DNA of 34,318 nt, taken from IMG/VR virus record IMGVR_UViG_3300021197_000936, positions 1-34,318 of that record; one strand, given 5' to 3'. This stretch comes from a virus. The notes under the pieces are model-generated. The model worked only from the letters and a program-made list of their open reading frames with translations, did no database searches and had not been told where the DNA came from. Both the position numbers and the translations under genes were made by a program. Below, piece after piece: positions 3,188-34,318 of this stretch (its first letter is position 1; each line of letters starts with the position of its first letter).

Positions 3188-3753
3188 CGCTTGCCCCCCG
3201 GCTTGGACCACCCAGAGACGGCCCGCATCTTTTGAGCGCGCTCGAGCATGGCTTCGAGTTGATCGGGGGTGTTCCGCTCCTGCGTCGTCAGGTGATACCG
3301 CTCGGCGGTCGAGTGGAAGACAGCCTCCGTCCATGGGTTGGACCGCCACGACTCGACGACCTCGTCCCACTGTCGAACGGCGGCCGACTGGAGCGACCGA
3401 CCCTTGACGCAGTCACACGCCGCCGCGTAGCTCTCCGCGCGGACCTTGTTGTTCTTCTCATGCCACCGACATAACTCACGCCAGCCTGTCATATTGCAGG
3501 CCGGACAGCCAGGGAGAGCGGCGGCCGTGACCCTGAGAGGACTCGCTTCGATGGTCGTCTTCAGGCGTGCAAGGTTGGCGATCTTGGGCTGCTTCTGACA
3601 CCACTCCTCCACGCCTCGAATCAGGTCCTTGTCGTGTATGGACGACAGCCCTCGCGACCATAGCTTGAGCGAGGACTCGACCCAGGGGTCGGACTTGCCG
3701 TAATTCTGTGCGAGCGCTTGAAGACAGCGCTTGACTACTGGGATCGATGCCAT
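3184..3753 (-). CDS. putative replication protein with Cys/His cluster (helicase-loader-like)
   Basis: Encodes 189 residues from ATG 3753, preceded by ACACAGGAG. The N-terminal 70 residues are helical with a spacing (W-x2-x-L ... P-x-I/L-A-x-L) that resembles the N-terminal domain of phage helicase loaders and primosome proteins. The middle carries C83-x2-C86, C95-x2-H98 and C113-x-C115, a likely zinc-binding cluster. It overlaps the methyltransferase gene by four bases and follows the initiator-like gene. Initiator plus loader side by side is common in phages without their own helicase, and no DnaB-type helicase or polymerase is visible here. The function is inferred mainly from context. Confidence 0.5.
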   Translation of the reverse strand: MASIPVVKRCLQALAQNYGKSDPWVESSLKLWSRGLSSIHDKDLIRGVEEWCQKQPKIANLARLKTTIEASPLRVTAAALPGCPACNMTGWRELCRWHEKNNKVRAESYAAACDCVKGRSLQSAAVRQWDEVVESWRSNPWTEAVFHSTAERYHLTTQERNTPDQLEAMLERAQKMRAVSGWSKPGGKR

Positions 3754-3768
3754 GAGGTTCTCCTGTGT

Positions 3769-4557
3769 CTATCTCTTGAGGGTGATCAAATTGCCGAGGT
3801 CGTCGAATTGAGCGTCGTCGAACCAGTCCGATCCGCCGATGCCCTGTCCAGGCGTCCAGTCGTTCGACAGGTCGACGTACTCCCGGAGGTTCTTCGCCCG
3901 GAGAAAGGTCGAGTATGAGTATCCACCGCCCCGGAGGAACTCCGCGCGGCTGTCTGAGGACTCCCACCACCAGCGCCACGCCAGGGTGACCGCCTCGCGT
4001 CCGTGTTCGTTCACCCGGACCCGGAGCATGTCTCGCCGGCCTCCAAGCTTTGCCCGGTTCGAGTTGGGCCGAGCCGCGAGACGGATGTCCTCGAGGTCCG
4101 TCCACACCGCCCCGAGGTCGATCCGTTCCGACTTCACCTTTGAAATTGGAACGTCTACTGTCTGGGGATCTGTAGGTGTAGGTGTAGGTGTAGGTGTAGA
4201 TCCGCGCGCGTGATGGCTGAAACCGTCGTCAATTGTGGCCGGTTTCCGGTCGGTCTTGCTCTCTAAGTCCTTGGTATCGTTGGGCTCGGGTGGCCGGTGG
4301 CCGTTCGTGATGAGTGGCCGATCCTGGTTCTCCCACTCTTCGACGTACGCCCTCACCTCTCCGAGGATGCGGTTCGCATGGTACCGGGTCCACCCGGCCC
4401 ACTCCGAGAGCTTCCTCGACGACCAGGCCGAGCCGGACAGGTGCATGTCCAGAGCCACCGAGAAGCCGACGAGGTCCGGCGCGGGGTGGTCCTTGGTCCA
4501 CCTCATGATCAGCGAGTCGAGGATGAGCGCCCTCGGGATGGGTCTCCACTGCTTCAC
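3769..4557 (-). CDS. putative replication initiation protein (winged-helix)
   Basis: Encodes 262 residues from a GTG at 4557 with AGGGGG seven bases upstream; the start overlaps the RusA stop as GTGA. An in-frame ATG at 4584 would overlap RusA further and lacks such a site. Residues of about 20-80 look like a winged helix (SSRKLSEWAGWTRYHANRIL), similar to phage initiators that bind the origin. A low-complexity Thr-Pro linker follows near residue 120. The C-terminal half is Trp- and Arg-rich (AWRWWWE, then a GYSYSTFLR segment), as in many phage replication proteins. Its partner is likely the loader-like protein encoded next. The family is not certain. Confidence 0.6.
   Translation of the reverse strand: MKQWRPIPRALILDSLIMRWTKDHPAPDLVGFSVALDMHLSGSAWSSRKLSEWAGWTRYHANRILGEVRAYVEEWENQDRPLITNGHRPPEPNDTKDLESKTDRKPATIDDGFSHHARGSTPTPTPTPTDPQTVDVPISKVKSERIDLGAVWTDLEDIRLAARPNSNRAKLGGRRDMLRVRVNEHGREAVTLAWRWWWESSDSRAEFLRGGGYSYSTFLRAKNLREYVDLSNDWTPGQGIGGSDWFDDAQFDDLGNLITLKR
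4171..4200 (-). repeat. hexanucleotide tandem repeat encoding a Thr-Pro linker
   Basis: About four to five copies of a six-base unit (GGTGTA on the plus strand) encode alternating Thr-Pro in the initiator-like protein, between its winged-helix and C-terminal parts. Such repeats can change copy number by slippage; each unit adds two residues without shifting the frame. Confidence 0.85.
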
Positions 4558-5051
4558 GGGGTGCCCCCTTGAGCGCTCAGCCACGAGCGAGGGACGAAGA
4601 CAGACACGACGGCGCGAGGCTCGTCGGGTGGTTCAGCGAGTAGCACCTCGCCCCGAGGTATCGCGATCTGACAGTCGTCGACGTAGACGACCCCGTTCAG
4701 CGCGTCCGCTACCGCCTTGTAGACGTTGTCGGCATCTCCCCCGGTGCGCGTCGCCTTGTAGAACGGACCCTTCGGGCCTGTCTTCCGTCGTCGACTCTTC
4801 GGCAAGGGGAACACCCCCAAGACGTCGAGACGGACCGGGACGCCGGCCGGGATCATGGTACGCCCCGCCATCGCAGACACGGCGAAGAGCTTCACGAGGT
4901 CCTCATACGCTCTCGTCTTGTCGTCTGTGTAGGTGTGCGGGCGACCGCGTCGGATGCTGAACCGGGGCCGGCCTTTCGGCTGCGGAACTCCGGGGACGTG
5001 GAACCGGACGAAGGGGACCCACGTCGTCGATGTGCTGGGGAATAGGTGCAT
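4554..5051 (-). CDS. rusA: RusA-family Holliday junction resolvase
   Basis: Encodes 165 residues, slightly longer than E. coli RusA (about 120). RusA cuts four-way junctions to debranch replicating or recombining DNA before packaging. The signature is GGDADN (residues 104-109), KAVADALNG (112-120) and VDDCQIA (124-130). Asp106, Asp108 and Asp125/126 match the metal-binding aspartates. The N-terminal VPGVPQPKGRPRF segment is also typical. Start 5051 is the only ATG after an in-frame stop (TAA); its ribosome-binding site is weak. It lies with the annealase and Gp157-like genes in a recombination block and overlaps the initiator gene. Confidence 0.92.
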   Translation of the reverse strand: MHLFPSTSTTWVPFVRFHVPGVPQPKGRPRFSIRRGRPHTYTDDKTRAYEDLVKLFAVSAMAGRTMIPAGVPVRLDVLGVFPLPKSRRRKTGPKGPFYKATRTGGDADNVYKAVADALNGVVYVDDCQIAIPRGEVLLAEPPDEPRAVVSVFVPRSWLSAQGGTP

Positions 5052-5149: not shown

Positions 5150-5671
5150 TTAGCGGAAGCTGACGGACTTCAGGACGACCACGACCGCGCCGTCGACATC
5201 TTCACCCGATTCGATGATCTTCGAGACCGCCTTCCGGTCGATCTTGGGCTCCCAGGTGATGAAGTCCGAGGCCCTGTTCGAGTGAACAAACCCCTCGACG
5301 TCCGAGATGAGAAGATTCGGGCGCTCGGAGATCCAAACCGTCGACCGATCCGTCTTGATCTTGGACTCTCCTTGAGTCACCTCGTAGCGTTTCAGGAGTT
5401 CGAGCATCTGAAACCGAGCGCGCTCAAGGACCCTCTCGCGGTTCTTTTTCCGAGCCGTAAGTGCGGCGATCTCCTTCTTGTAGAACTCGATCTGAGCCTT
5501 TGCAGACTTGACCACGAAGGCCCACGAGTCCGCCTTGTCCTCGACGTCAGTCGCGAGCCCTTCTAACTCCCGGTCAATTAGTTCGTCGGTGACTCCTTCG
5601 GCCTTCACGAGCCAGTCGATCAGCCCCTCGGCCTCGTCGATGAGTTGCGCTGTCGTCTTCTTCTTGGCCAT
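5150..5671 (-). CDS. siphovirus Gp157-like protein
   Basis: Encodes 173 residues from ATG 5671 with CAGGAGG upstream. Residues of about 20-95 form a long charged coiled coil. They are followed by a beta-rich end (KIKTDRSTVWISERPNLLI) ending in a valine-rich strand, the layout of the Gp157 family (first linked to phage resistance in Streptococcus thermophilus phages and usually found beside recombination genes). The molecular role is not settled; a Gam-like DNA-end-binding or annealase-partner function fits its place between the Erf-type annealase and RusA. A palindrome lies between this gene and the annealase gene. Confidence 0.75.
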   Translation of the reverse strand: MAKKKTTAQLIDEAEGLIDWLVKAEGVTDELIDRELEGLATDVEDKADSWAFVVKSAKAQIEFYKKEIAALTARKKNRERVLERARFQMLELLKRYEVTQGESKIKTDRSTVWISERPNLLISDVEGFVHSNRASDFITWEPKIDRKAVSKIIESGEDVDGAVVVVLKSVSFR

Positions 5672-5745: not shown

Positions 5746-6483
5746 TTAGAACGGGATCTCGCTGTCGTCGTACGGTGGCGCCTCTTGGGTCGGAGGCTCT
5801 TCGGCTGGCTCGTCGACGGCTGTCAGAAAGCGAACGTATGACCACTCCTTCTCGTCGTCACTCTCACCCCATGAGACCCCGACGCGGTCGCCCTTCTCGC
5901 CACCGATCCAGAAGATCGACCCGACGTTCCCCTTCGATGTCCTGACTCGGTCTCCCCTCGAGAAGGTAGCGTCGACGACACCGTTCGCCGGGGCCGCGCT
6001 GCTCTTCTTCGCTGGGGTTGACTTGGTCCGGCGGGGCGGACTCTTGGCTTCTTGGGCGCTGCGCTTCGTGTCGTTCAGTCCGACCCCGTCCTCGTCTCCA
6101 CGCGGGATCAGAAGGAGGTCGCGGAGCGTGTACGACAGGCCAGCGGTGAGCGCTCCGGCGACGGCCTTGTCCATGGGTCGACCCTTCGAGAGCACGGCGG
6201 GCCAGTCTCGGACAATGCTCACCGACTCCGCGCCGCCGAGCGCGATCGTGTGAGTCGCCCGGACGATCATTGTGTCCTCGGCGCATGGGATCAACTCGAC
6301 GTCGCCGGCGGTCAATATCAAGCCAGCCTGATGGAGCACGGCTCGACACTCCGAGATCATGCTCTCGGCGGTGACATAGTCATAATTGTGGAACTCGTTC
6401 CGGCCGTTCTTGTCGATGCCTTCGAGCGCCTGTTGAGCGCTCAAGAGCGCCTCGTGTACTGTCTTCGGTTTTGTGGGTGGCAT
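5746..6483 (-). CDS. erf: Erf-family single-strand annealing recombinase with SH3-like and SSB-type tail
   Basis: Encodes 245 residues from ATG 6483 with AGGAGG upstream; an in-frame ATG at 6516 lies upstream of the ribosome-binding site and is rejected. Erf proteins anneal complementary strands in phage recombination and genome circularisation. Residues 1-125 carry the family pattern (KNGRNEFHNYDYVTAESM at 25-42; GAESVSIVRDWP at 84-95; DKAVAGALTAGLSYTLRDLL at 105-124). A lysine-proline linker (145-165) leads to a small beta-rich domain (175-222, FSRGDRVRTSKGNVGSI), like KOW/SH3 folds. The last ten residues, PPYDDSEIPF, imitate the acidic tip of bacterial SSB, which recruits host repair proteins. 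The tail and extra domain are not part of the minimal Erf fold. Confidence 0.85.
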   Translation of the reverse strand: MPPTKPKTVHEALLSAQQALEGIDKNGRNEFHNYDYVTAESMISECRAVLHQAGLILTAGDVELIPCAEDTMIVRATHTIALGGAESVSIVRDWPAVLSKGRPMDKAVAGALTAGLSYTLRDLLLIPRGDEDGVGLNDTKRSAQEAKSPPRRTKSTPAKKSSAAPANGVVDATFSRGDRVRTSKGNVGSIFWIGGEKGDRVGVSWGESDDEKEWSYVRFLTAVDEPAEEPPTQEAPPYDDSEIPF

Positions 6484-6497
6484 GGTGCCTCCTGTGT

Positions 6498-6869
6498 TCA
6501 GTGTGAACTCATCCAAGAGATGAGCAGGTTCGCCGCTGTGAAGGCCCCCAGGAGGGCCGAGAGCCCGAGGGCTACCACGAGGACCCGCGGCGGCTTGCGC
6601 GAGCTTGTGGGGGTGTTTCTGTCCAGTTGTGGCGCCATATCTGGCCCCGGAGGTAGCGTCGGACCGTCTTCGATCTGTCTACAAGCCCACACAACGAGCC
6701 GACGAACGTCGGGATCCTTGTGATCGTGGAGTTGAGAGATCACCTCGTGGAGAACTCGTACCTCGGCGAGGAGTTCCACGGTCGCTCCCATGACGTCGCC
6801 GGGGGTGACATGGTGTGTCCTCCCTCTGTCGTCGATAGCGAGCCAGGTCACGACGTTCGGATCCATCAT
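6498..6869 (-). CDS. hypothetical protein with C-terminal membrane anchor
   Basis: Encodes 123 residues. The N-terminal two thirds are soluble and mostly helical (a His- and Asp-rich segment near 47-53). A proline-rich stretch follows, then one hydrophobic segment at about 94-119 (VLVVALGLSALLGAFTAANL) and a short tail, so it is probably tail-anchored in the inner membrane. The start at 6869 overlaps the upstream stop as ATGA, and a second ATG follows immediately. I do not recognise the family. Confidence 0.7.
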   Translation of the reverse strand: MMDPNVVTWLAIDDRGRTHHVTPGDVMGATVELLAEVRVLHEVISQLHDHKDPDVRRLVVWACRQIEDGPTLPPGPDMAPQLDRNTPTSSRKPPRVLVVALGLSALLGAFTAANLLISWMSSH

Positions 6870-7318
6870 GTGCGCGGATACCCGACGGCGTGTCCCATCA
6901 GATCGAGGAACTTCAAGACGGCGACCGCGTCGGCGGTGTTCGTGTCGAGCTTCTCTTCGATGTAGGTGTGATGGAGATATCCGGGCTCACTGATCACCAT
7001 GAACCGATCCCCGAGACCGTAGAGCCTCAGACAGAGGAAGAACTTCGACTCGTTGATCTTGCCGTAGATCAGCGAGTAGCGCGTCCCGTTTCCGGGCTCC
7101 CAGTCGTACCAATCGACCCAGTTATCAATAGGCCCTCGCCATCCGTGAGCGTGGATCCGGTCAATCTCTCCGGCGTCCTCGAAGGCTCGGAGGTTGGCCG
7201 GACACCTCACGAGGTCCTCGGTCGGCGGCTGAGTTGTGAAGCTCGACGGCCGGAGTCGGTCGCATAGCTGGACGACAGACGGGCTGTCCTGAGCGGTTGA
7301 GAGTGGGACAATTTTCAT
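6866..7318 (-). CDS. hypothetical protein
   Basis: Encodes 150 residues from ATG 7318 with CACACAGGAG upstream. It is aromatic-rich in the middle (WVDWYDWEPGNGTRYSLIYG), followed by alternating strands and a final helix, which suggests a small globular alpha/beta protein. There is no membrane segment. It is coupled by a four-base overlap to the membrane-anchored protein that follows, so the two may act together. Family not recognised. Confidence 0.75.
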   Translation of the reverse strand: MKIVPLSTAQDSPSVVQLCDRLRPSSFTTQPPTEDLVRCPANLRAFEDAGEIDRIHAHGWRGPIDNWVDWYDWEPGNGTRYSLIYGKINESKFFLCLRLYGLGDRFMVISEPGYLHHTYIEEKLDTNTADAVAVLKFLDLMGHAVGYPRT

Positions 7319-7352
7319 GGTGTTCTCCTGTGTGAGATGATGATCGAGCGGC

Positions 7353-7568
7353 TCAGATGCCGTTCGCGTGGATGAAGTTCTTGTAGAGGTTCGAGCGCGT
7401 GATGATGCTCCGGATCAAGGTGGCCGGGGCCATCCCCATATCCTCGGCGATCCCCTCGACGCTCGTCTTCTCGTTCTCTGTCAGGTAGATCGTCACCTTC
7501 TGATCGTGGCGATCTTCCTTGGCTTTGGCTGGTCGGCCTACTGGGGCCGCTTGCTTCTCGTTACTCAT
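7353..7568 (-). CDS. ribbon-helix-helix DNA-binding protein
   Basis: Encodes 71 residues from ATG 7568 with AAGGAGG upstream. After a basic, AT-hook-like N-terminus (GRPAKAK, 11-17) comes a strand (KVTIYLT, 24-30), a helix (ENEKTSVEGIAEDMG, 31-45), a turn and a second helix (PATLIRSIITRS, 48-59). This is the ribbon-helix-helix plan of CopG/Arc/MetJ repressors, which bind palindromic or tandem half-sites as dimers. It is the only clear small sequence-specific DNA-binding protein in the window, so it is the first candidate to bind the ACGGTT-type operators of the repeated modules. No toxin partner is evident next to it. Confidence 0.75.
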   Translation of the reverse strand: MSNEKQAAPVGRPAKAKEDRHDQKVTIYLTENEKTSVEGIAEDMGMAPATLIRSIITRSNLYKNFIHANGI

Positions 7569-7806
7569 GGTGTCGATCCTCCTTGAATCGGCGATCTCTG
7601 ATCGCTTTTTTGATGGCTTCCTCTATCTCGAGCGGTTCGAGTTCGACCGCTTCTTGAGTCTCAGCGTCGACCGACTTCTCGATCCACCACTGATCCCCGT
7701 CGTCCGGCTCGGGAGGGTACCACCGGCGGGCCTGTCCGGCCTGGTGACCGACTTCGACGTCGATCTCGATGGTCCTCTCGATGGTCACGGTGTGACGTGT
7801 TGACAT
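7561..7806 (-). CDS. small acidic hypothetical protein
   Basis: Encodes 81 residues from ATG 7806 with GAGGTGAGC upstream; the longer in-frame start would overlap the previous gene and is rejected. The N-terminus forms beta strands (HTVTIERTIEIDVEV), then a WYPPEPDDGDQWW turn and a charged C-terminal helix. It overlaps the ribbon-helix-helix gene by eight bases, so the two are probably co-translated. It might be a cofactor or anti-regulator of that protein, but the sequence does not show it. Confidence 0.65.
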   Translation of the reverse strand: MSTRHTVTIERTIEIDVEVGHQAGQARRWYPPEPDDGDQWWIEKSVDAETQEAVELEPLEIEEAIKKAIRDRRFKEDRHHE

Positions 7807-7808
7807 GC

Positions 7809-8336
7809 TCACCTCGGCCCCGGCATCGTGCCGGCGTAGTGTGAGATCCAGGCGTTCTCTTCCTTGCCTTCGGCCGCTTGCTTGAGTTCCCTGCTCTTCT
7901 GAAGGCGCCCGAGGTGGTCTGTCTTGACGAGCTTCCGCTCTTCCTTGGTGAGCCACACTCCCCACATCGGCGGCTCCCCTTCCAAGGTGCCGACACCGAG
8001 ACGCCGAGCGGCGGCCGTGTAGCCCTGCGAGGAGAAGAAGAACTCTGTCGGCCCTCGTCCGCCGAGAAGCGAGGATCGCTCTCTTGAGGGTCGACCCTTC
8101 GAGATCTTCGGGGTCGCTCTTGGGGTGGCCGGTGCGAGCGCGAGGGTCGTCTGAGAGATCACCGGCTGCGGCTTCGGCTGCGGCTCGGGCTCCTTCGGTA
8201 CCATCTCGACGACCTTCGTCGACGTGATCGTCGGGTAGTCTTGGCCGACTTGCATGTCGATCAAGTGCTCGACGGGTGGGTCGTCTGTTACGACGACGGC
8301 TTGGATTGTGATGAGGTAGGTCTTCAAGGTCTTCAC
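7809..8336 (-). CDS. hypothetical protein
   Basis: Encodes 175 residues from a GTG at 8336 with CACAGGAG upstream. The first 45 residues look like a beta-strand domain. They are followed by a proline-rich linker (EPEPQPKPQP) and a basic C-terminal half with a helical, lysine-rich segment (TKEERKLVKTDHLGRLQKS). It lies two bases upstream of the next gene. No family recognised; domain order suggests a two-part adaptor. Confidence 0.65.
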   Translation of the reverse strand: MKTLKTYLITIQAVVVTDDPPVEHLIDMQVGQDYPTITSTKVVEMVPKEPEPQPKPQPVISQTTLALAPATPRATPKISKGRPSRERSSLLGGRGPTEFFFSSQGYTAAARRLGVGTLEGEPPMWGVWLTKEERKLVKTDHLGRLQKSRELKQAAEGKEENAWISHYAGTMPGPR

Positions 8337-8362
8337 GGTGTGCTCCTGTGCTTGTGTGAAGT

Positions 8363-8440
8363 TCAGACGGCCATCAGGCCGACAAGGAGGGCGGTCCAGA
8401 TGAACGCGCCCAAGAGGTCGAAGAGGTCGGTCCGGCTCAT
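8363..8440 (-). CDS. 25-residue membrane microprotein
   Basis: A very short frame, starting at ATG 8440 and ending at 8363, encodes a charged N-terminus (MSRTDLFDLLG) and one hydrophobic segment ending LLVGLMAV. Its start overlaps the stop of the preceding gene as ATGA, the coupling seen at many real junctions here. It fills a gap that is otherwise empty. There is no strong ribosome-binding site of its own, so it would depend on re-initiation. Confidence 0.45.
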   Translation of the reverse strand: MSRTDLFDLLGAFIWTALLVGLMAV

Positions 8441-9003
8441 CGAGCCGGCTCGGTGTAGTACGCGATCACGGCTACCGAATGGACAGACCACCGCTTGCAC
8501 TCTTCGCGAAGTCGTTCGTCGTTGGCCTTGCGGGGCTCACCGACTGGGAGCCACGAGCCCGAGACCCGTCGCACCATAACGATCCCGTGAGTGTGCTCGC
8601 TCGAGGTTGGCTCCGCGAGGAGAGCCGGCTCGGTCACGGTGGGATCGTCGCTCGTGTCCTCGTCGTCGATGTCTTCGACGGGCTCGGGCTGAGATACCGC
8701 CGGCGCGGGGTCTGTGTGGCTCTCTGCTGGCGTGTAGCTACTCGGGCGGACCTTGGCCCCAAGATCGACGAGGAACGGCTTCGAGAGCGTGTTCCGGTCG
8801 ATCTTGAAGAGTCCGAGCCGGCGGCCGGCGTCGAGCACCTCGGCCCATCGGCCGGGGTAGACAGCCGACACACCGAGAAGCGGGGCGGCGTGCTTCTTGT
8901 AGCGGTCAACGTGGAGCCGGCGGTTCGAGGTCGCGCGTCGTTGCCTGAGCGCGACCAGGACCGCTCGAGCGGCGGCGTCGTAGTGTTGTTGGGTGATCTT
9001 CAT
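8437..9003 (-). CDS. hypothetical protein, second gene of cassette A
   Basis: Encodes 188 residues. ATG 9003 is chosen because AGGAGGACGAG lies directly upstream and because the in-frame upstream extension would cross the GC hairpin. Residues 1-90 are basic and helical, possibly a winged-helix-like fold (RWAEVLDAGRRLGLFKIDRN). An acidic linker (EDIDDEDTSDDP) and a short beta-rich C-terminal domain follow. The 47 bases covering its hairpin leader and start codon are identical to those before the gene starting at 10440, though the two proteins are unrelated. Confidence 0.7.
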   Translation of the reverse strand: MKITQQHYDAAARAVLVALRQRRATSNRRLHVDRYKKHAAPLLGVSAVYPGRWAEVLDAGRRLGLFKIDRNTLSKPFLVDLGAKVRPSSYTPAESHTDPAPAVSQPEPVEDIDDEDTSDDPTVTEPALLAEPTSSEHTHGIVMVRRVSGSWLPVGEPRKANDERLREECKRWSVHSVAVIAYYTEPAR

Positions 9004-9045
9004 CTCGTCCTCCTGTGTGATGGACTGGCCCCCCGGAGGGGGCCG
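8999..9045. repeat. 47-bp direct repeat, copy 1 (hairpin plus ribosome-binding leader)
   Basis: Identical to 10436-10482. It holds the hairpin GGCCCCC (9027-9033)/GGGGGCC (9038-9044) and, on the minus strand, a CACACAGGAGGACGAG leader and the ATG of the downstream gene. In minus-strand RNA the loop is UCCG closed by C-G, a UNCG tetraloop. It begins 13 bases after the stop of the gene at 9057-9440, so it may both end or protect that message and lead into the next. Confidence 0.9.
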
Positions 9046-9056
9046 GGTGGGTGTTC

Positions 9057-9440
9057 TTATGCGCGGCGGTTCGAGAGACGGGCTTGACGGCGCGCTTCTC
9101 GGCGTGCTGCTTTCCGGATGTCGCGCTCTTCTTGGCTCAGTGAAAGCCAAAGCTCGAGCGCGGCTTTCTCAGCGGCAATCGACGCTGATGTTCGGATCCG
9201 ACTGATCGCGGCGGTGAGGACGCGCTTCTCGGTTCCGGTAGCCACTGAGCGCGCCGCCGTCATAACGGTGTGGATCTTGTCCCATCCGTCTTGGCTCGTC
9301 TCGTAGGCGAGACGGCTGTAGTGTCCCGCCTCGACGGTGCGGTCTCTGAGGCTTACGCCGGCCATCCGTGCCGCCATCGTTACAAAACACGATGCGCTGT
9401 CGGTGAAGTCGTTTCGGATGATGTTCTTGTCGTTGTTCAT
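9057..9440 (-). CDS. hypothetical protein, first gene of cassette A
   Basis: Encodes 127 residues from ATG 9440, preceded by CACACAGGACAACGAC. The open frame continues upstream to 9599, but that part is the promoter module and is rejected as coding. The protein is helical, with a strongly basic C-terminus (KAARREARRQARLSNRRA), suggesting nucleic-acid or ribosome contact. It is driven by module A (9473-9620) and followed by the GC hairpin. No family recognised. Confidence 0.75.
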   Translation of the reverse strand: MNNDKNIIRNDFTDSASCFVTMAARMAGVSLRDRTVEAGHYSRLAYETSQDGWDKIHTVMTAARSVATGTEKRVLTAAISRIRTSASIAAEKAALELWLSLSQEERDIRKAARREARRQARLSNRRA

Positions 9441-9472
9441 GTCGTTGTCCTGTGTGTGGCCGGGGTGCATCC

Positions 9473-9620
9473 CCTTGGCTCTCCTGTAGAGTAATCGACC
9501 GTTGTAAACCGTGCAAGCAAACCAGCGCAAGACGATCACACGATCGAGAGACGTCCATTGATTAGACAAGATCCGCGAAGAGGGGATCGCGACGATCATC
9601 CCGTGGCGCGAATGGCGTTT
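9473..9620 (-). promoter_or_regulatory. repeated regulatory module, copy A
   Basis: Facing left, it contains TTGCAC (9516-9511), a 17-base spacer and TACTCT (9493-9488). The operator ACGGTT-TAC-AACGGT (9512-9498) lies mainly in the spacer and overlaps the -35 box. Upstream are GATC sites at 9534, 9542, 9570, 9585 and 9594, the box GAGACGT, and a distal CCCGTGGCGCG edge. It aligns over its length with copy B (10847-10993), with GATC spacings of 8-28-15-9 against 8-28-14-9. The leader forms a small hairpin, GGGG-ATGCA-CCCC (9474-9462). The distal part overlaps the last codons of the upstream gene. Confidence 0.85.
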
Positions 9621-10440
9621 CGAGTCCTCGCCCCCTGTAGTTCTCGAGCTTCTTCAGTAGCTCCCACCGGCGATCACGCAGGGCGAGTATCTGCCGAGCG
9701 GCTTCGGCTTTGCTCGCCACCTGCTCCGGCTTCGGTGGGTCCCATCCCCAGAGCCAGTGAAGGCGCTCGAGCCGGCGGGCCATCGAGACGCGATTCGGTC
9801 CGTTCCACTCCTTGAGGAGCCGCATCACCTGAGGCTGTCCTCGGCTGCTCCCGGTCGGGGAGTACCATCCGAGAACATGCTCGGCGAAGTTGTACGGATT
9901 CGAGAAGCCGGCCTCTGTGAACTGATCCGAGTCCTGGAGGATCGACGTGTGGTCTCGCCGATCGTAGTGTCTCCAGTCCTCCGACCACTCACCGCGGCCG
10001 ATCTTGAGGGTGTACCATCGATCCCAGATCCGGCGCTTGTCCTGCTTCCACAGACCCGGAGCTTCCAAGAGGTCGAGCACCTTCCACGGCTCGACGAAGT
10101 TCTTCAAGCCCCACTCGAGCGCGGTCTCTTCCTGCTTCGTGTCGACGCCGATCTTCCTCAGACATCGATCGCAGATCGTGAACCGATTCGGAAGGCCGCC
10201 CCACAAGGGCGACGCGCTGATTCGATCGTCTCGACATATGGGACCGATCTCGAAATTGTCGTACGGATCGTAGGGGTCCTCGGTCAAGTGAAAGCTGTCG
10301 TGACTGTGTCCGACGTTGTTCCCGCCGAGACCTCGGTCGGTATCGCCATCGAGCCACGTCGCCAACTTCGGCAAGGCTTCCGCCGCCCACTCCGACGGGT
10401 GCGGTCTGTCTGCCCATTCTCCTGTGATGTCGAATTTCAT
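9562..10440 (-). CDS. hypothetical protein, second gene of cassette B
   Basis: Encodes 292 residues from ATG 10440, with AGGAGGACGAG upstream in the 47-bp repeat; the frame continues upstream through the hairpin but that extension is rejected. It is rich in Trp and charged residues. There is a possible metal site (GPICRDD near 66-72 and ICDRCLRKIG near 89-98). The C-terminal half is helical (KPEQVASKAEAARQILALRDRRWELLKK). The last twenty or so codons lie inside module A, so its C-terminus seems to be made of regulatory DNA. No family recognised. Confidence 0.7.
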   Translation of the reverse strand: MKFDITGEWADRPHPSEWAAEALPKLATWLDGDTDRGLGGNNVGHSHDSFHLTEDPYDPYDNFEIGPICRDDRISASPLWGGLPNRFTICDRCLRKIGVDTKQEETALEWGLKNFVEPWKVLDLLEAPGLWKQDKRRIWDRWYTLKIGRGEWSEDWRHYDRRDHTSILQDSDQFTEAGFSNPYNFAEHVLGWYSPTGSSRGQPQVMRLLKEWNGPNRVSMARRLERLHWLWGWDPPKPEQVASKAEAARQILALRDRRWELLKKLENYRGRGLETPFAPRDDRRDPLFADLV

Positions 10441-10482
10441 CTCGTCCTCCTGTGTGATGGACTGGCCCCCCGGAGGGGGCCG
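10436..10482. repeat. 47-bp direct repeat, copy 2 (hairpin plus ribosome-binding leader)
   Basis: Identical to 8999-9045. The hairpin here is GGCCCCC (10464-10470) with GGGGGCC (10475-10481). It begins about ten bases after the stop at 10491 and ends in the start codon of the 292-residue gene. Exact identity across non-coding bases implies recent duplication or recombination between the two cassettes. Confidence 0.9.
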
Positions 10483-10490
10483 CGGGGTCG

Positions 10491-10838
10491 TTACGCTGCG
10501 ACCCGCCAGCGACGGCGGGCCCATGTCGCGACGTGTTGCTCGGCTTCGGCGAGGGTGTCGAATTCGCGCGTCCTGACGGCGCCTCCGTGGCTGCTGACTC
10601 CCTTCGTCGTGACCACGAAGACCGACCGCCCTCGGTAGTCGGTGGGGGTGCGTCCGGTCCACCGGGTTCCGATAGAGGCGCGGACCGACGAGCGGTCCTT
10701 CGTTCCGGGGTCACGGCCTGACAGGCTCGAGGCGTCGATGACGTGGGTCCCGGTCGGCTCGGTGATCCGGTACTGGCGAGCGGGTCCGTGGTGGTTGAAG
10801 TTCGAGGTCCATCCGAATCGGGCGGGGCGGGTTGTCAT
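10491..10838 (-). CDS. hypothetical protein, first gene of cassette B
   Basis: Encodes 115 residues from ATG 10838 with AAGGAGAACAAG upstream. It is basic, with predicted strands through the middle and a C-terminal helix (DTLAEAEQHVATWARRRW). No membrane segment or known motif. It is driven by module B (10847-10993) and followed by the 47-bp hairpin repeat. Not similar to the first gene of cassette A, although the flanking DNA is. Confidence 0.7.
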   Translation of the reverse strand: MTTRPARFGWTSNFNHHGPARQYRITEPTGTHVIDASSLSGRDPGTKDRSSVRASIGTRWTGRTPTDYRGRSVFVVTTKGVSSHGGAVRTREFDTLAEAEQHVATWARRRWRVAA

Positions 10839-10846
10839 CTTGTTCT

Positions 10847-10993
10847 CCTTGGTTCTCTCGTAGAGTAATCTACCGTTCTAAACCGTGCAAGCGAATCGAC
10901 ACGACACGATCACCCGATCGAGAGACGTCTATTGATTAGAGGCGATCGCCTACGGGGGATCATGACGATCACCCCGTGGCGCGCGCGTCGTTT
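10847..10993 (-). promoter_or_regulatory. repeated regulatory module, copy B
   Basis: Facing left: TTGCAC (10890-10885), 17-base spacer, TACTCT (10867-10862), operator ACGGTT-TAG-AACGGT (10886-10872). GATC sites lie at 10908, 10916, 10944, 10958 and 10967. The GAGACGT box and the distal edge CGATCACCCCGTGGCGCG are present. In the minus-strand reading the operator is a direct repeat of ACGGT with a ten-base period, i.e. one helical turn. The leader is CTCTACGAGAGAACCAAGGAG. The module ends exactly at the stop of the 443-residue gene upstream. Confidence 0.85.
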
Positions 10994-12323
10994 ATCGGGC
11001 GGCCGGGACGGCGACCTCGAGGGTCCTGGCCAGCATGATCACCCGAGCCCGGTCGGTGTACCGCTGGAGATACGCGCTGTCTTCGTTCATCTCGACGAGG
11101 ATGTCGTCGGCCTCCTGAGTGTCCAGAAGGTCGAAGCCGCGACCGTCTCCGGTGTGCATGGCTCCGAACTCGAGGACGTACTTCAAGACGTCGTCGTCGG
11201 CCATGTCCTCGGGGCTCGGGCGGTGGTCTCCGCTGACGTACTCCGCGACCTGGGCCCAGAACTCGCCCTCGCCCATGTCGTGGTCGAGGTACGCCTTCAC
11301 CTGTCCGAGGTGCTTCATCGACTCGATCCGCTCACACTCCGCGTCGATGCTTGAGCCGTCGGGAACATTCCACGCGCCGTCGTTGTAGTGGTGCCGACGG
11401 AACCCGGAAACCTGAGCGAGGAACTTCGAGAAGTCGATCTCGATGTCTCCGCAGAGCGTGTCGAGATGCTCTTGATCGTCCGCGCTTATGACGAGCCCGC
11501 CCGCGCCCTCGTCGCTGATGCTTCCCGATAGAATAGCCTCGATCGATTGAACCATGAACTCGCCGAGCTTGACTTCTTCGCGATCGATGGGCTGGTTCTC
11601 GTCGTCGATCTGACATCCTGCGTCGTCGAACTCGGTGAGCTTGCCTTGGACGTAGGCGAGAACACACTCAAGATCGCCTCTCATCTTGTGCTCGCGGGCT
11701 GTCATGGGCTCGACAGTGGTCTCGGTGGGCTCGACCTCTGCGACGTCCTGAGCGGGCTCCTGAGCCTTCTCCTCGGCGAGCTTCTTCGCGGCGGTGGCGT
11801 GATAGTGGTCCCAGTCGGCGGCCTTCTCCTCGGCGAGCTTCTTCGCGGCGGTGGCTACTTGGTCGCGGTAGTCGGCGTGGAGAGCCTCGTCGACATAGGC
11901 GAGATAGTCGGCGATCATGTTGTGGATGTCGAGCTTGAGTGACTTCTTCGCCTCCACAGTCCAAGAACCCGGACCCGGCTCAAAGTGATCTTTGTGAATC
12001 GAGAACGTTGTCGGATAATGTTCCGATGCCTCGGCCCATTCAGCGAAGGTTTGTACACAATTCGCGCGGCGGCCGATGAGCTTCCCGAATTTCTCCATCG
12101 AGGAGTCGGAGACAGAGGCGCTGTAGCCCCAGATCCAGCCGTGAGCGCGGCCAAAGGCCCTACCCGTCTTGATGCTCGCTACGTTGAAGCGCCAACTCGA
12201 GGTGCCCTTCTTGAGGTCAACGACGACAGTCATGTCTGCGTCGGGCACGTTGATCCTGTCGTAGTTCAAGATCTTGACTTGAGAGAAGGAGGTGAGAAGG
12301 GCGGAGAAGGAATCAATGCTCAT
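10992..12323 (-). CDS. large acidic hypothetical protein of cassette C
   Basis: Encodes 443 residues from ATG 12323, preceded by CACACAGGACAACAAC. Residues 1-140 look like a mixed alpha/beta domain. The middle (about 155-195) is a charged helix with a duplicated AAKKLAEEKA motif, probably a coiled coil. The C-terminal 220 residues are strongly acidic and helical. No catalytic motif was recognised. It is the largest cassette gene and has its own module (12361-12520). Acidity could suit DNA mimicry or binding of a basic host protein, but that is only a suggestion. Confidence 0.8.
   Translation of the reverse strand: MSIDSFSALLTSFSQVKILNYDRINVPDADMTVVVDLKKGTSSWRFNVASIKTGRAFGRAHGWIWGYSASVSDSSMEKFGKLIGRRANCVQTFAEWAEASEHYPTTFSIHKDHFEPGPGSWTVEAKKSLKLDIHNMIADYLAYVDEALHADYRDQVATAAKKLAEEKAADWDHYHATAAKKLAEEKAQEPAQDVAEVEPTETTVEPMTAREHKMRGDLECVLAYVQGKLTEFDDAGCQIDDENQPIDREEVKLGEFMVQSIEAILSGSISDEGAGGLVISADDQEHLDTLCGDIEIDFSKFLAQVSGFRRHHYNDGAWNVPDGSSIDAECERIESMKHLGQVKAYLDHDMGEGEFWAQVAEYVSGDHRPSPEDMADDDVLKYVLEFGAMHTGDGRGFDLLDTQEADDILVEMNEDSAYLQRYTDRARVIMLARTLEVAVPAAR
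11764..11855 (-). repeat. 35-bp direct repeat within the 443-residue gene
   Basis: The 35 bases at 11764-11798 recur unchanged at 11821-11855. They encode AxxAAKKLAEEKA twice, separated by a short DWDHYH segment. Identical codon use shows recent duplication; it keeps the frame and lengthens a predicted coiled coil. Confidence 0.85.
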
Positions 12324-12360
12324 GTTGTTGTCCTGTGTGTGTGTCGGCCGGGGTTCGTCC

Positions 12361-12520
12361 CCTTGGCTCTCTCGTAGAGTAACAACGGTTTAGAACCGTG
12401 ACAAATAAACCGACGAAGAACACGACAGACGATCGCCCCTGATCGCTGTACGTCTCGGGGTGATCGTTTTATTTTCGATCGTCGCGCCGGGGGTGATCGT
12501 CCGTGGCGCGTTCGTTGTTT
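12361..12520 (-). promoter_or_regulatory. repeated regulatory module, copy C
   Basis: Facing left: TTGTCA (12404-12399), 17-base spacer, TACTCT (12381-12376). The spacer holds a perfect palindrome, ACGGTT-CTA-AACCGT (12399-12385). GATC sites occur at 12431, 12441, 12462, 12477 and 12495; two sit in GGGGTGATCG repeats (12457-12466, 12490-12499). The block CGAGACGTACAGCGATCAGG is shared with copy D. The leader forms GGGG-ACGAA-CCCC just after the start of transcription. It fills the 196-base gap between the FmdB-like gene and the 443-residue gene. Confidence 0.85.
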
Positions 12521-12711
12521 TAGGCGTACCCGGTCGACGCCCATCCGCCGCCCTTCAGGACGAACGAACTCCGCGACACCTGCTTGACCATCTCCCGAGC
12601 GACGCCCTCGTCGATAGCGCACGAGGCGCAGTGAGGCGCGGGGGCGTCGGCCTTCTGAAGAACCTCGGCGACGTCTTGGCACTTGTAGCACTTGTACTCG
12701 AAGAGCGGCAT
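12520..12711 (-). CDS. FmdB-family zinc-ribbon protein
   Basis: Encodes 63 residues. It begins MPLFEYKC with C8-x2-C11 and C28-x2-C31, and ends with SRSSFVLKGGGWASTGYA. Both the opening and the SSFxLKGGGW-TGY ending are hallmarks of the FmdB family, small zinc ribbons described as putative regulators in bacteria. Its role in phages is unknown. The start overlaps the preceding stop by one base (TGATG), placing it as the last gene of the lysis block and just before module C, so it is a possible though weaker candidate regulator. Confidence 0.85.
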   Translation of the reverse strand: MPLFEYKCYKCQDVAEVLQKADAPAPHCASCAIDEGVAREMVKQVSRSSFVLKGGGWASTGYA

Positions 12712-12986
12712 CAGTTCCCCCGGTCGATGAGTCGGTCTAACTTGTGGACGATCTCTTTCGACTGAGTGTCCTCGCGCTCTCGGTACTCGGAGATCACTCG
12801 GTCGTAGCGCTCGCGCATCCTGTCGGTCCGCTGATCGTAGTCCTTCCGGATCTCTTCGATCTGCTCCTGGAACCCCTCGACAACTCGATCCAGTCTCTTC
12901 TGCATCACGAGGAATTGATACACGAGGAACGCGGCGAAGAGTCCGAGATGTCCACCCTCGAGAAGAGTATCGATCAGCGCTTCCAC
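12711..12986 (-). CDS. membrane coiled-coil protein, possibly BhlA/UviB-like holin
   Basis: Encodes 91 residues from a GTG at 12986 with GGAGTAACC upstream. One membrane helix lies near residues 14-30 (LGLFAAFLVYQFLVMQ). It is followed by a long, charged coiled coil (31-88). A single N-terminal helix followed by a charged helical tail is the layout of BhlA/UviB holin-like proteins, and it lies beside the endolysin. It could also be a structural membrane protein of the lysis machinery. Confidence 0.6.
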   Translation of the reverse strand: MEALIDTLLEGGHLGLFAAFLVYQFLVMQKRLDRVVEGFQEQIEEIRKDYDQRTDRMRERYDRVISEYREREDTQSKEIVHKLDRLIDRGN

Positions 12987-12988
12987 GG

Positions 12989-13567
12989 TTACTCCATCTC
13001 GATCAGGGTGTACGTAAAGCGGGGACCATATAGCTCGGCCGCTCTTTCACACAGACTTATCAATAGATCGAACTCATTTGGATCCGCTAAGACCTGACAC
13101 CCTGCGGAGAACTTCGAGACGGTCGGGCTCGTCCTGGAGGCGCTCGCTCTGTGGATGTTCAGCCCTACGACACCGGCCTCGTCGGTACCGGGGTTCATGT
13201 CGAGAACCTCGTCCCGGTTGTCGTCTCTCCAGTAGCGGACCGGGCGCGACTGTACGAGAGCCCGGTATCGGCTCCGGTGATACCCGAGGACATGGCTCCC
13301 TCGGTATTGACCGGGACACATGATCGCCGTCCCTCGGACGTTCATCGGGTTCTGTCTCCAGTAGACACCGGGGTCGGTGGTCGCTGAGAAGGTTCGAGTC
13401 ACCCACCCGTCGCCGTCTCGGTAGACGACACACAAGCGATCGTTGAACTCGTTCGAGGTTCGGTCCGGACTTCGGATCCCGATGATGTTCAAATTGTAGA
13501 GACCGCGCTCGAATACGGCGTGACCGCGTCGAGCTACTTCATCGAGTAAGGGCGGACGAACTGACAC
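12989..13567 (-). CDS. putative endolysin, L,D-transpeptidase-like catalytic motif
   Basis: Encodes 192 residues from a GTG at 13567 with GGTGA upstream. Residues 137-141 (NIHRA) and 154-159 (SAGCQV) provide His139, Ser154 and Cys157. The spacing and context resemble the His...S-x-G-C signature of YkuD-type L,D-transpeptidases, whose phage relatives are found in lysis cassettes. Upstream signatures GTAIMCPGQY and LGYHRSRYRALVQ recur in phage proteins of this type. There is no signal peptide, so export would need a holin. The substrate would be peptidoglycan cross-links or stem peptides, but activity is inferred. Confidence 0.65.
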   Translation of the reverse strand: MSVRPPLLDEVARRGHAVFERGLYNLNIIGIRSPDRTSNEFNDRLCVVYRDGDGWVTRTFSATTDPGVYWRQNPMNVRGTAIMCPGQYRGSHVLGYHRSRYRALVQSRPVRYWRDDNRDEVLDMNPGTDEAGVVGLNIHRASASRTSPTVSKFSAGCQVLADPNEFDLLISLCERAAELYGPRFTYTLIEME

Positions 13568-15817: not shown

Positions 15818-17647
15818 CTATAGCTCGAGCCACGTGTTATCGGGCGCGAACATTATAACGCTGGCTGTCGCGCAAGCGAAGCCGATGCACCTCACAAAAT
15901 CACCCGAAGCGCTCGGTCTTGTGAAGGTCATGTTCCCGGCGGTAAGGCTCACATAGACCGGGTCGCCCTGGTCGAAGGTCCCGTCGATGGCGCTCGCGTT
16001 GTCGATGAAGCCACGAACGAGCATACCGTTGGAGGCTGCGTCGTTAGCGTTGCCGCTTCCATCACCTCCACAAGCTACCGCGAGAAGTGAGGCCGTCGAC
16101 ACTTCGGCGTCGGCGTCAGCGAGGACCCAGGCGCCGTTTGTGTCGAGATAGTAGAGCTTCCCCTTCACCGTCTGACCGGTACCGAAGAAGACCTTGTCGC
16201 CGACCGCCTCGTCGTTGACGAGGTTCGAGACACCGCCATAGTTGAACGTCGGGCCGTAGGTTCCGAACGAGGCGATCGTCGTCGGGCTCTGTGCGTTCGA
16301 GCCGCTGCTCGTAGGGATTCCGGAGCTTATCTCGACGGCTCCGGGGAGTCCGGTACCCGTGCCGAGTCCGCCTCCGATCAGGAGGGTCTTCCCGTTCGTG
16401 TTGGTTCCGCTCTCTCCGACTGCTGTCACGGAGGCGTTGTTCGCGTCGCTTGCGCTTCCGAGTGTGACGTCTCCGCCTGTCACCGTCGCGTCACCGGCTA
16501 CGGTTAGAGCGCCGGTACCGACCGCGCCTGTCGTGTCGATAGTCGACGCGCCGACGTTGATCGTCCCGAAATTGCTGGTGATGCTTCCGGCATCGAGCGC
16601 GCCTGTCGTCACGATTCCAGAGCCACCGGCGATCGGTGAGTAGATCGACGAGATGTTCGTCCCGCCTACGGTGATCGCGTCGGCCTCGAGTGTCCCGTCG
16701 AAGTCTCCGTCGACGGCGTCGATGTTGCCCTTGAACACGGTCGCTGTCACAGTCCCGGAGCTTGGGTTGTAGGTGAGGTGTCCGTCCATCTCGAGACCGA
16801 CGTTCCCGGTCGCCGAGGTTCCGCCTTCGACGAAGGTGATCAGGTTCTCCTCGCTCGTGCTCTCGTTGTCAGTGACAAGAACGTGGGCCGAGTTCGTCGC
16901 GTTCGTTGCGTTCGTCGCGTTCGTTGCGTTCGTCGCGTTCGTCGCGTTCGTTACGGTCACGCCTGCAATGACAGTGTTCAAGGCTGTACCGTTGACGGTG
17001 ATCGCGTCGGCTTCAAGTGTCCCGTCGATGTCGGCGTCTCCGCTGATGTCGAGGGAGCCCGCGTCAAGCTCTCCGGAGATCGTGACGTGCCTCGCTCCGC
17101 TGATGTCGAGACTCGCGTCGACGACCATCGCCTTCGATGCGGCCACGGTGCCGGCGGTGATGCCGTCGATCTGTTCGAGGTCGGCTTCGGATATGACGGC
17201 GGATCCGATAGTGAAACCGGTCGCGGTGACCACTCCGGACGAAGTGATCGCGGCGGCCTTCAGGGCTGCATCGGTCAAGGTCAGGTCGCCAGTGCTCGCG
17301 CCGGTTGCGGCGGTGGTGCAGACCTTCCACAGATCCTCCGACTCGTCGAAGATGATCGCCGCGTTCGTGTCGCTTCCGCGCTCGACGATGATCCCCGCGT
17401 CGCCGGAGGCGCTACCGCTTCGGCCGTTGCCGAGTTCGATCAGTTGATCCTTGACGACGAGGTTCGTCGTCGAGAGGGTGGTCGTCGTACCGGTAACGCT
17501 CAGGTTGCCAGTGATGGCCAGCGTCGACCCGTCGAAGGTTAGGTTCGCCTCTGCGTCGAGTTCGCTGGTCTTGTTTCCGATCGTGACGAGTCGGTTCTCG
17601 ACCTTGTTGTTCATGCCGGTAACGGCGACAAATGCTTGACTCTTCAT
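15818..17647 (-). CDS. tail fibre protein
   Basis: Encodes 609 residues from ATG 17647 with GGAGGG upstream. It consists of short beta repeats of the form LTVAGDATVTGG and DGTLEADAITVGGT, typical of trimeric fibre shafts. The N-terminal part includes an IIVERGSDTNAAIIF segment common in fibres of aquatic phages. Near residues 232-252 there is a run of Asn-Ala-Thr repeats. The C-terminus (from about 480) is more globular (KLYYLDTNGAWVLADADAEV) and may carry the receptor tip. No chaperone cleavage motif or tail-spike enzyme motif was recognised. Confidence 0.8.
   Translation of the reverse strand: MKSQAFVAVTGMNNKVENRLVTIGNKTSELDAEANLTFDGSTLAITGNLSVTGTTTTLSTTNLVVKDQLIELGNGRSGSASGDAGIIVERGSDTNAAIIFDESEDLWKVCTTAATGASTGDLTLTDAALKAAAITSSGVVTATGFTIGSAVISEADLEQIDGITAGTVAASKAMVVDASLDISGARHVTISGELDAGSLDISGDADIDGTLEADAITVNGTALNTVIAGVTVTNATNATNATNATNATNATNSAHVLVTDNESTSEENLITFVEGGTSATGNVGLEMDGHLTYNPSSGTVTATVFKGNIDAVDGDFDGTLEADAITVGGTNISSIYSPIAGGSGIVTTGALDAGSITSNFGTINVGASTIDTTGAVGTGALTVAGDATVTGGDVTLGSASDANNASVTAVGESGTNTNGKTLLIGGGLGTGTGLPGAVEISSGIPTSSGSNAQSPTTIASFGTYGPTFNYGGVSNLVNDEAVGDKVFFGTGQTVKGKLYYLDTNGAWVLADADAEVSTASLLAVACGGDGSGNANDAASNGMLVRGFIDNASAIDGTFDQGDPVYVSLTAGNMTFTRPSASGDFVRCIGFACATASVIMFAPDNTWLEL
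16892..16954 (-). repeat. 9-bp tandem repeat encoding Asn-Ala-Thr
   Basis: About seven copies of a nine-base unit (GCGTTCGTY on the plus strand) encode consecutive Asn-Ala-Thr triplets in the fibre. The third codon base alternates between C and T, so units are not all identical. Each unit adds three residues in frame, so slippage could alter shaft length. Confidence 0.9.
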
Positions 17648-33946: not shown

Positions 33947-33981
33947 GGTCCGAGCATACAGCGAACGAGCCACCCTGTCGA
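33947..33981 (-). promoter_or_regulatory. candidate promoter of the structural operon, possibly leaderless
   Basis: On the minus strand TCGACA (33981-33976) and TATGCT (33958-33953) are 17 bases apart, a near-consensus sigma70 promoter. Only six bases separate the -10 box from the portal ATG at 33946, so transcription would start at or next to the start codon. No strong ribosome-binding site precedes this ATG, which agrees with a leaderless message. It is divergent from module D. Confidence 0.5.
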
Positions 33982-33991
33982 GAACCGGCCC

Positions 33992-34151
33992 AAACCGCCG
34001 CGCGCGCCACGGGGTGATCGCGGGGTGATCGTCTCGGGTGATCGCGATCATCTTGCGAGACGTACAGCGATCAGGGGCTCCAGGTGATCGCCTAACTTGT
34101 CGATTTATTTTGCACGGTTCAAAACCGTGTTACTCTACGAGGGAACCAAGG
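33992..34151 (+). promoter_or_regulatory. repeated regulatory module, copy D
   Basis: Facing right: TTTGCA (34109-34114), 16-base spacer, TACTCT (34131-34136), with a perfect palindrome CACGGTT-CAA-AACCGTG (34113-34129). GATC sites at 34016, 34027, 34040, 34046, 34069 and 34086, three of them in GGGTGATCG repeats (from 34012, 34023 and 34036) and one in GGTGATCG (34083). It shares CGAGACGTACAGCGATCAGGG with copy C and the distal edge CGATCACCCCGTGGCGCG (complement at 34003-34020) with copy B. The leader runs CTCTACGAGGGAACCAAGGAG into the ATG at 34160. Confidence 0.85.
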
Positions 34152-34159
34152 AGAACAAC

Positions 34160-34312
34160 ATGACCGCTCGACAAGTACACGACATGCTCAAGGAAGACGC
34201 TGCTTACATCTGGAGCCGCAACAACCAAGACGCAGTGAACATGATGATCGTACTGGCCGCGCACGGGTTGAACAGCACGATCGATCACGCGCTCATCATG
34301 ATTCAATTCTAA
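34160..34312 (+). CDS. 50-residue hypothetical protein, plus-strand cassette gene
   Basis: Begins at ATG 34160 with AAGGAGAACAAC upstream; an upstream ATG at 34097 lies inside the promoter and is rejected. It encodes a mostly helical protein (TARQVHDMLKEDAAYIW, then AVNMMIVLAAHGLNSTIDHALIM) without a clear membrane segment. It is controlled by module D, divergent from the portal. On a joined genome the next gene is that at 38-499. A 50-residue, early-type small protein under its own operator is typical of host-takeover factors, but no function can be read. Confidence 0.75.
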   Translation: MTARQVHDMLKEDAAYIWSRNNQDAVNMMIVLAAHGLNSTIDHALIMIQF

Positions 34313-34318
34313 ACCACC

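Follow-up and report, generated by a model that had tools for sequence, protein, structure and literature searches.

The genome of an uncultured virus of bacteria (IMG/VR record IMGVR_UViG_3300021197_000936, 34,318 bases, the whole of which is referred to here as the window) carried four gene units built on shared control sequences, and comparison with related phages showed replacement as well as presence and absence of genes with the edges of the changes at these control sequences. We consider it likely that accessory genes are arrayed here as cassettes which recombine at the shared control sequences, most plausibly by way of the Erf annealase of the phage. As proposed here, a complete unit would consist of a promoter with an embedded operator palindrome, a first gene (slot 1), a shell made up of a hairpin, a Shine-Dalgarno sequence and ATG, and a second gene (slot 2).

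Family profile searches identified tailed-phage genes in the window, namely those for the terminase (528-2000), tape measure (20842-23799), portal/head morphogenesis (31289-34051), and Erf annealase; one 920-aa reading frame at 31289-34051 held both the portal and the head-morphogenesis domains. Neither an integrase nor a repressor was identified among the proteins scanned, and no Rfam families or tRNAs were found. The two contig ends were continuous with one another, the right end (34310-34318) supplying a stop codon and ACCACC and the left end (1-40) a hairpin, a leader, and ATG. Since the ends join and this arrangement was contiguous in a related phage (L020), the record probably represents a whole genome that is circularly permuted. 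The relatives, which were gathered by terminase and portal searches, were few (L004/L020, L025, L005, L006/L007, and more distant contigs), and every one was a metagenomic or uncultured-virus contig. L004/L020 showed 78% nucleotide identity with the window over 7.4 kb, and L020 was the sole close relative covering both units A and B. The 7-14.6 kb region of the window had no DNA match among 50,697 phage records, and searches with P0003, P0001, and the 153-aa gene of unit C gave no viral relatives other than L020. Searches of bacterial and archaeal genomes with the portal and terminase gave no match.

Bases 8999-9045 (shell B) and 10436-10482 (shell A), both on the minus strand, were identical at 47 of 47 positions, with a start-to-start spacing of 1437. 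The sequence-only reading had described this identity across a hairpin, ribosome-binding site, and start codon, exactly as we found it; the common frame that it reported for the two copies was also correct, and says only that 1437 is a multiple of 3. No other exact direct repeat in the 34.3-kb genome was as long, and 20 order-2 Markov shuffles gave lengths of 14-19. Read on the minus strand it was CGGCCCCCTCCGGGGGGCC-AGTCCATCACACAGGAGGACGAG-ATGAA, consisting of a hairpin with a perfect 7-bp all-GC stem (10464-10481 in shell A and 9027-9044 in shell B), the Shine-Dalgarno leader AGTCCATCACACAGGAGGACGAG, and the start codon, and the identity stopped two bases past the start codon. A diverged copy, shell C, which matched shells A and B in 31 of 47 columns, lay on the plus strand across the contig ends; its first part, ACCACC (34313-34318), ran on at window position 1 into the second part (1-40), with the hairpin GGCCCCCACGGGGGCC (3-18), the leader ACACACCCAGGACAACGAC, and ATG. 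The unit containing this shell and the A0 promoter before P0005 had both been overlooked in the sequence-only reading. The exact shell had no match in IMG/VR, and a relaxed hairpin-leader pattern matched only the contig behind L020. A tandem 9-nt repeat (GTTCGTCGC/GTTCGTTGC) was also observed at 16883-16958, within the large open reading frame 15818-17647.

Three of the units were on the minus strand. Unit A0 consisted of a promoter and P0005 (10992-12323, 443 aa; 62.6% and 84.7% in L020 over two segments), the first gene after this promoter, and was without a shell in the window; a 57-bp tandem duplication inside P0005 (11764-11877, 35 nt exact) encoded a repeated AAKKLAEEKA segment. Unit A was composed of a promoter, P0004 in slot 1 (10491-10838, 115 aa, without a counterpart in L020), shell A, and P0003 (9562-10440, 292 aa), which was conserved (54% in L020). 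In unit B, the promoter was followed by P0002 in slot 1 (9057-9440, 127 aa), shell B, and P0001 (8437-9003, 188 aa, 74% identical in L020). Unit C, on the plus strand, consisted of a promoter, a 50-aa gene in slot 1 (34160-34312), shell C, a 153-aa gene in slot 2 (38-499), and a terminator-like hairpin, CGGCCCCCTCCGGGGGGC (507-524), located where the unit C and terminase genes converge. The two unit C genes had the lowest GC contents of the 48 reading frames compared (50.6% for the 153-aa gene, with a GC3 of 56.5%, and 51.6% for the 50-aa gene, against a mean of 60.7% and sd of 3.5), and the 153-aa gene is probably a recent import. The slot genes scanned against Pfam, PHROG, and PADLOC were assigned no significant family, and P0004, P0002, and the 153-aa gene had no match in phage records.

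Protein comparison detected no similarity between P0003 and P0001 or between P0004 and P0002, in agreement with the earlier claim that the proteins of the two units are unrelated. The same order of units A and B, with 80% identical promoters 1374 bp apart, might be read as a sign that a promoter-gene-hairpin-gene block was recently duplicated in tandem and that its genes diverged afterwards. This origin is extremely improbable, and we rejected it because the paired proteins were without similarity although the shells were 100% identical; in addition, orthologues of P0003 and P0001 were already at both places in L020.

The promoter modules of units A and B, which the sequence-only reading had placed as flanking modules, could be aligned over 115 bp at 80% identity. 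Module A (10844-10991, minus strand, operator at 10872-10887) started directly past the P0005 stop and was not present in L020, and module B occupied 9470-9584 (minus strand, operator at 9498-9513). Promoter A0 (12372-12402, minus strand) contained the operator palindrome CACGGTTCTAAACCGT (12385-12400) and the -10 region TTACTCTACG upstream of P0005, and module C was located at 33993-34159 on the plus strand (operator at 34113-34128), its core being 94% and 89% identical to the unit C promoters of L020 and L025, respectively. A position-weight model was built from the modules of three phages and tested on those same sites; it gave four strong sites in the window, whose scores of 40-48, against at most 15.5 in shuffles, were high by construction. 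The A0 promoter scored 43 against 9-15.5 for shuffles, a score that likewise follows from the construction of the model, and had an operator with 0 mismatches. Three further sites were found in L020 and one in L025. All strong sites were directly upstream of slot-1 genes, and the informative part of this result is the absence of others. The operator CACGGTTNNNAACCGT (also cited as ACGGTTNNNAACCGT) had 8 matches, which were four palindromic sites read on both strands, with 0.65 expected, and the four operator-bearing promoters were located only at cassettes. A consensus sigma-70 scan of 7000-13000 detected none of the promoters there. At position 6400 of the distant relative L022 (minus strand), in a syntenic place, the model gave a best score of 17.5, barely over shuffles, together with the inverted repeat AACCGTGGATTACGGT; this site is possibly an old form of the promoter module.

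Only four places in the window had perfect all-GC hairpins (stem at least 6, loop 3-5), namely the three shells and 507-524, and all four were cassette boundaries. The hairpin at 507-524 is likely a terminator, and its occurrence alone between convergent genes would suit an explanation in which the hairpin does no more than end the transcripts of moron-like genes as an intrinsic terminator, and the array is made up of ordinary morons that have no particular aptitude for exchange. The position of unit C, opposed to its neighbours and lying between the terminase and portal genes, which abut in L006/L007, is also in keeping with such an origin. Against it, the hairpins had no U tract, and a scan of 7000-13000 for U-tract terminators called none of them. 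Full termination at shell B is unlikely because the early operon, which it would silence, lies behind this shell and no further promoter of the same type was found downstream; an early-operon promoter of another type might lie there. A partial terminator, a processing site, or a stability element fits the shell B hairpin better than a full terminator. The moron explanation leaves the homogenisation of the shells described below unexplained as well, and we consider it quite unlikely. In shells A and B and in shell B of L020, AGTCC was predicted to pair weakly with GGAC of the Shine-Dalgarno region; regulation through this pairing was dropped as a candidate because it was not predicted in shell A of L020.

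Comparison with the relatives located the variable position between promoter and shell, and in the entire interior of unit C. At unit A, L020 was 91% identical up to the P0005 stop; promoter A and P0004 were then missing, and the sequence continued directly to the shell and P0003, so that the cassette present in one phage and absent in the other was bounded exactly by a stop codon and a shell hairpin. The absence of this cassette could be partly an assembly matter, since the L020 scaffold contains a run of N and its P0005 homologue is frameshifted. At unit B, the end of P0003, the promoter, and shell B with P0001 were common to the window and L020, and slot 1 between the same promoter and shell was occupied by P0002 in the window and by an unrelated 247-aa gene in L020; the similarity ran through the promoter leader and came back at the shell. 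This was the comparison that the sequence-only reading had suggested, different genes between the same shells in related phages, and the relatives did not show the outcome that it had named as refuting an exchange slot, in which each slot would hold the same gene in every relative. When P0001 was compared with its L020 homologue (3337-3921), the first ~125 aa were nearly identical and the C-terminal third was diverged, and thus a mosaic boundary was observed inside this gene.

The clearest case of exchange was unit C, which was not among the units listed in the sequence-only reading. L020 and L025 were 92.5% identical over 5.5 kb on one side of this unit and 91.5% identical over 235 bp on the other; the similarity ended in the promoter leader and resumed at the terminator hairpin CCCCGGCCCCCTTCGGGG, and the genes between were unrelated. 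The similarity of the window to L020 and L025 restarted at the corresponding hairpin (507-524). The unit C gene of L025 was also carried by L005 (98.9% over 459 bp), and three different gene sets (window, L020, and L025/L005) were therefore found between a conserved promoter core and a conserved terminator. In L006/L007, the terminase and portal genes abutted, unit C being absent, and the terminase-portal junction of more distant phages was empty or held other genes. Judged by eye, the start of the junction gene in L034 (from ~2408) and L009 (from ~6846) was ParB-like. The proposal of gene exchange with the control sequences kept was thus upheld at units A, B, and C, but not for the genes behind the two identical shells, which were conserved. 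The slots point towards sites of entry for accessory genes into this phage group.

Misassembly at the 47-bp repeat was weighed as a source of the arrangement, given that the window and all its relatives are uncultured virus contigs from metagenome data and that 47 bp is near common k-mer sizes. We consider such an artefact very improbable: with two direct copies, one linear order alone holds all segments, and this order agrees with L020; furthermore, L025 and L005 agreed in unit C although they are separate contigs.

The shells themselves appear to have been homogenised within genomes. Window shells A and B matched at 47/47 columns, window A and L020 A at 38/47, window B and L020 B at 43/47, and L020 A and L020 B at 38/47. 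Because L020 has both shells, A and B in the window would be expected, under independent evolution of the shells, to differ at least as much as the orthologues do, whereas they were identical. Shell A was B-like in the window and C-like in L020. The longest exact repeat in L020 (31 nt) joined shells A and C, and the next three (26, 25, and 21 nt) joined the B1 and C1 genes, which were homologous (E 1e-15), so that every one of the four longest exact repeats in that genome linked cassette units. The 25-nt repeat consisted of the 3' coding end and stop codon of B1 and C1, adjoining the shell. In addition, the unit C promoter of L025 appears to be chimeric, with a C-type core and an A0-type leader (max-chi p <= 0.017). 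A promoter A mosaic of B and C gave p 0.0002 with gap columns and 0.15 without them, and was not claimed. The likeness of the shells, the shared tails of B1 and C1, and the chimeric promoter suggest that units have recombined with one another at their control sequences.

These likenesses could instead be ascribed to shared regulation only, in which one phage regulator and the host ribosome keep the control sequences alike, the genes turn over by ordinary illegitimate recombination, and of its products only those joined cleanly at gene boundaries survive. The operators, the hairpins, and the CACACAGGA leaders look functional, and the operators and hairpins were confined to units. A leader identical at 25 of 27 positions (16-18 in shuffles) stood before an unrelated gene in L024, a distant phage with 58% terminase identity, and selection alone could maintain it. 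Selection alone would not account for the agreement of window shells A and B at the loop and pre-ATG bases where the orthologous shells of L020 differ, and it leaves the 25-nt coding tail common to B1 and C1 unexplained. We therefore regard shared regulation as an unlikely sole explanation, somewhat less so than ordinary morons.

Recombination at the control sequences is compatible with the gene content of the phage. The Erf-type annealase that the sequence-only reading had recognized is present as an Erf-family single-strand annealing protein (5746-6516, minus strand; Pfam PF04404 2.9e-11, 44.0 bits against the curated cut-off of 25 for the ERF superfamily; phrog_155 2.8e-16). A Mu Gam-like DNA end protection protein (5150-5671; phrog_253 1e-17) and a RusA-like Holliday junction resolvase (4554-5051; Pfam PF05866 2.4e-20, phrog_140 1.1e-30) were encoded on the same strand. 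In vivo, both short and diverged homologies have been found to be substrates for Rad52-like annealases such as Erf of D3, and the minimal pairing segment of Red-beta is 23-27 bp (PMC3945230); the 47-bp shell would suffice for annealase pairing. In the mechanism that we propose, the shells and promoter modules would serve as short homology arms within a genome and between co-infecting phages, and annealing would most plausibly be carried out by Erf, with the Gam-like and RusA-like proteins completing a recombination set. An incoming gene would then land with the promoter, ribosome-binding site, and hairpin already placed. The hairpin may serve to end, attenuate, or stabilise transcripts, and a single regulator may act on the cassettes together through the operator. 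Other observations speak against this mechanism: the conservation of the genes behind shells A and B implies that these shells do not frame free exchange on both sides, and shell C, at 31/47, is too diverged from A and B for easy annealing. Similar breakpoints could also result from selection on gene boundaries after illegitimate recombination, and Erf is a candidate recombinase for the exchanges at these junctions. It is a tentative and rather doubtful extension that the phage has a cassette system of its own, made up of the operator-promoters and hairpin-RBS shells. These would be sequence addresses where its annealase swaps accessory genes that arrive already regulated and ready for translation, and repeated conversion between units would keep the addresses mutually compatible; if true, it would resemble an integron array without a site-specific integrase. 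The joints here are visible, carry control elements themselves, and are confined to few places, which makes the idea of a recombination address testable, and the slot genes may have roles in host interaction or counter-defence.

Among known systems, the T4-type PeSL cassettes, conserved boundary sequences, and morons come closest. PeSLs (promoter early stem-loops; Arbiol 2010 and Comeau 2014, cited in PMC4503421) are described there as short promoter and stem-loop controls that are repeated among small orphan genes and for which gene shuffling has been proposed. The shuffling of small genes in related genomes was likewise found here, as replacement or presence and absence at units A, B, and C. 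Going by that description and the titles of the cited papers, PeSLs are set apart by the phage type and by a composite promoter-terminator motif, whereas in the window promoter and hairpin were separate and the hairpin was joined to the ribosome-binding site and start codon; no shell contained a promoter-model site, such sites being only upstream of slot-1 genes. SAS repeats of cluster K mycobacteriophages lie directly upstream of the starts of unrelated small non-structural genes, and some are preceded by an inverted repeat; the inverted repeats of these ESAS have a length of 17 bp, are imperfect, and are not believed to form hairpins in RNA (PMC3203893), in contrast to the perfect, GC-only hairpin of the shells. 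With up to 2 mismatches allowed, the window contained 0 matches to the 13-bp SAS sequence GGGATAGGAGCCC. As in morons, unit C is an extra transcription unit inserted between genes adjacent in a relative (L006/L007), opposed to its neighbours, with its own predicted promoter and predicted terminator; it differs from them in the two-slot layout with an internal hairpin-RBS shell. With respect to boundary sequences, short homology was present at both edges of the replaced segment in the unit C interior and in slot 1 of unit B; exchange at these sequences would be by homologous recombination. Brujita and Island3, in which genes were gained or lost between ~50-bp repeats and neighbouring genes share a gene 3' end (PMC3029335), as do B1 and C1 of L020, are a direct precedent for gene gain and loss at repeats of this size; the units described here differ from them in that each boundary is a control element in its entirety, recurs at several units, and appears to have been homogenised within the genome.
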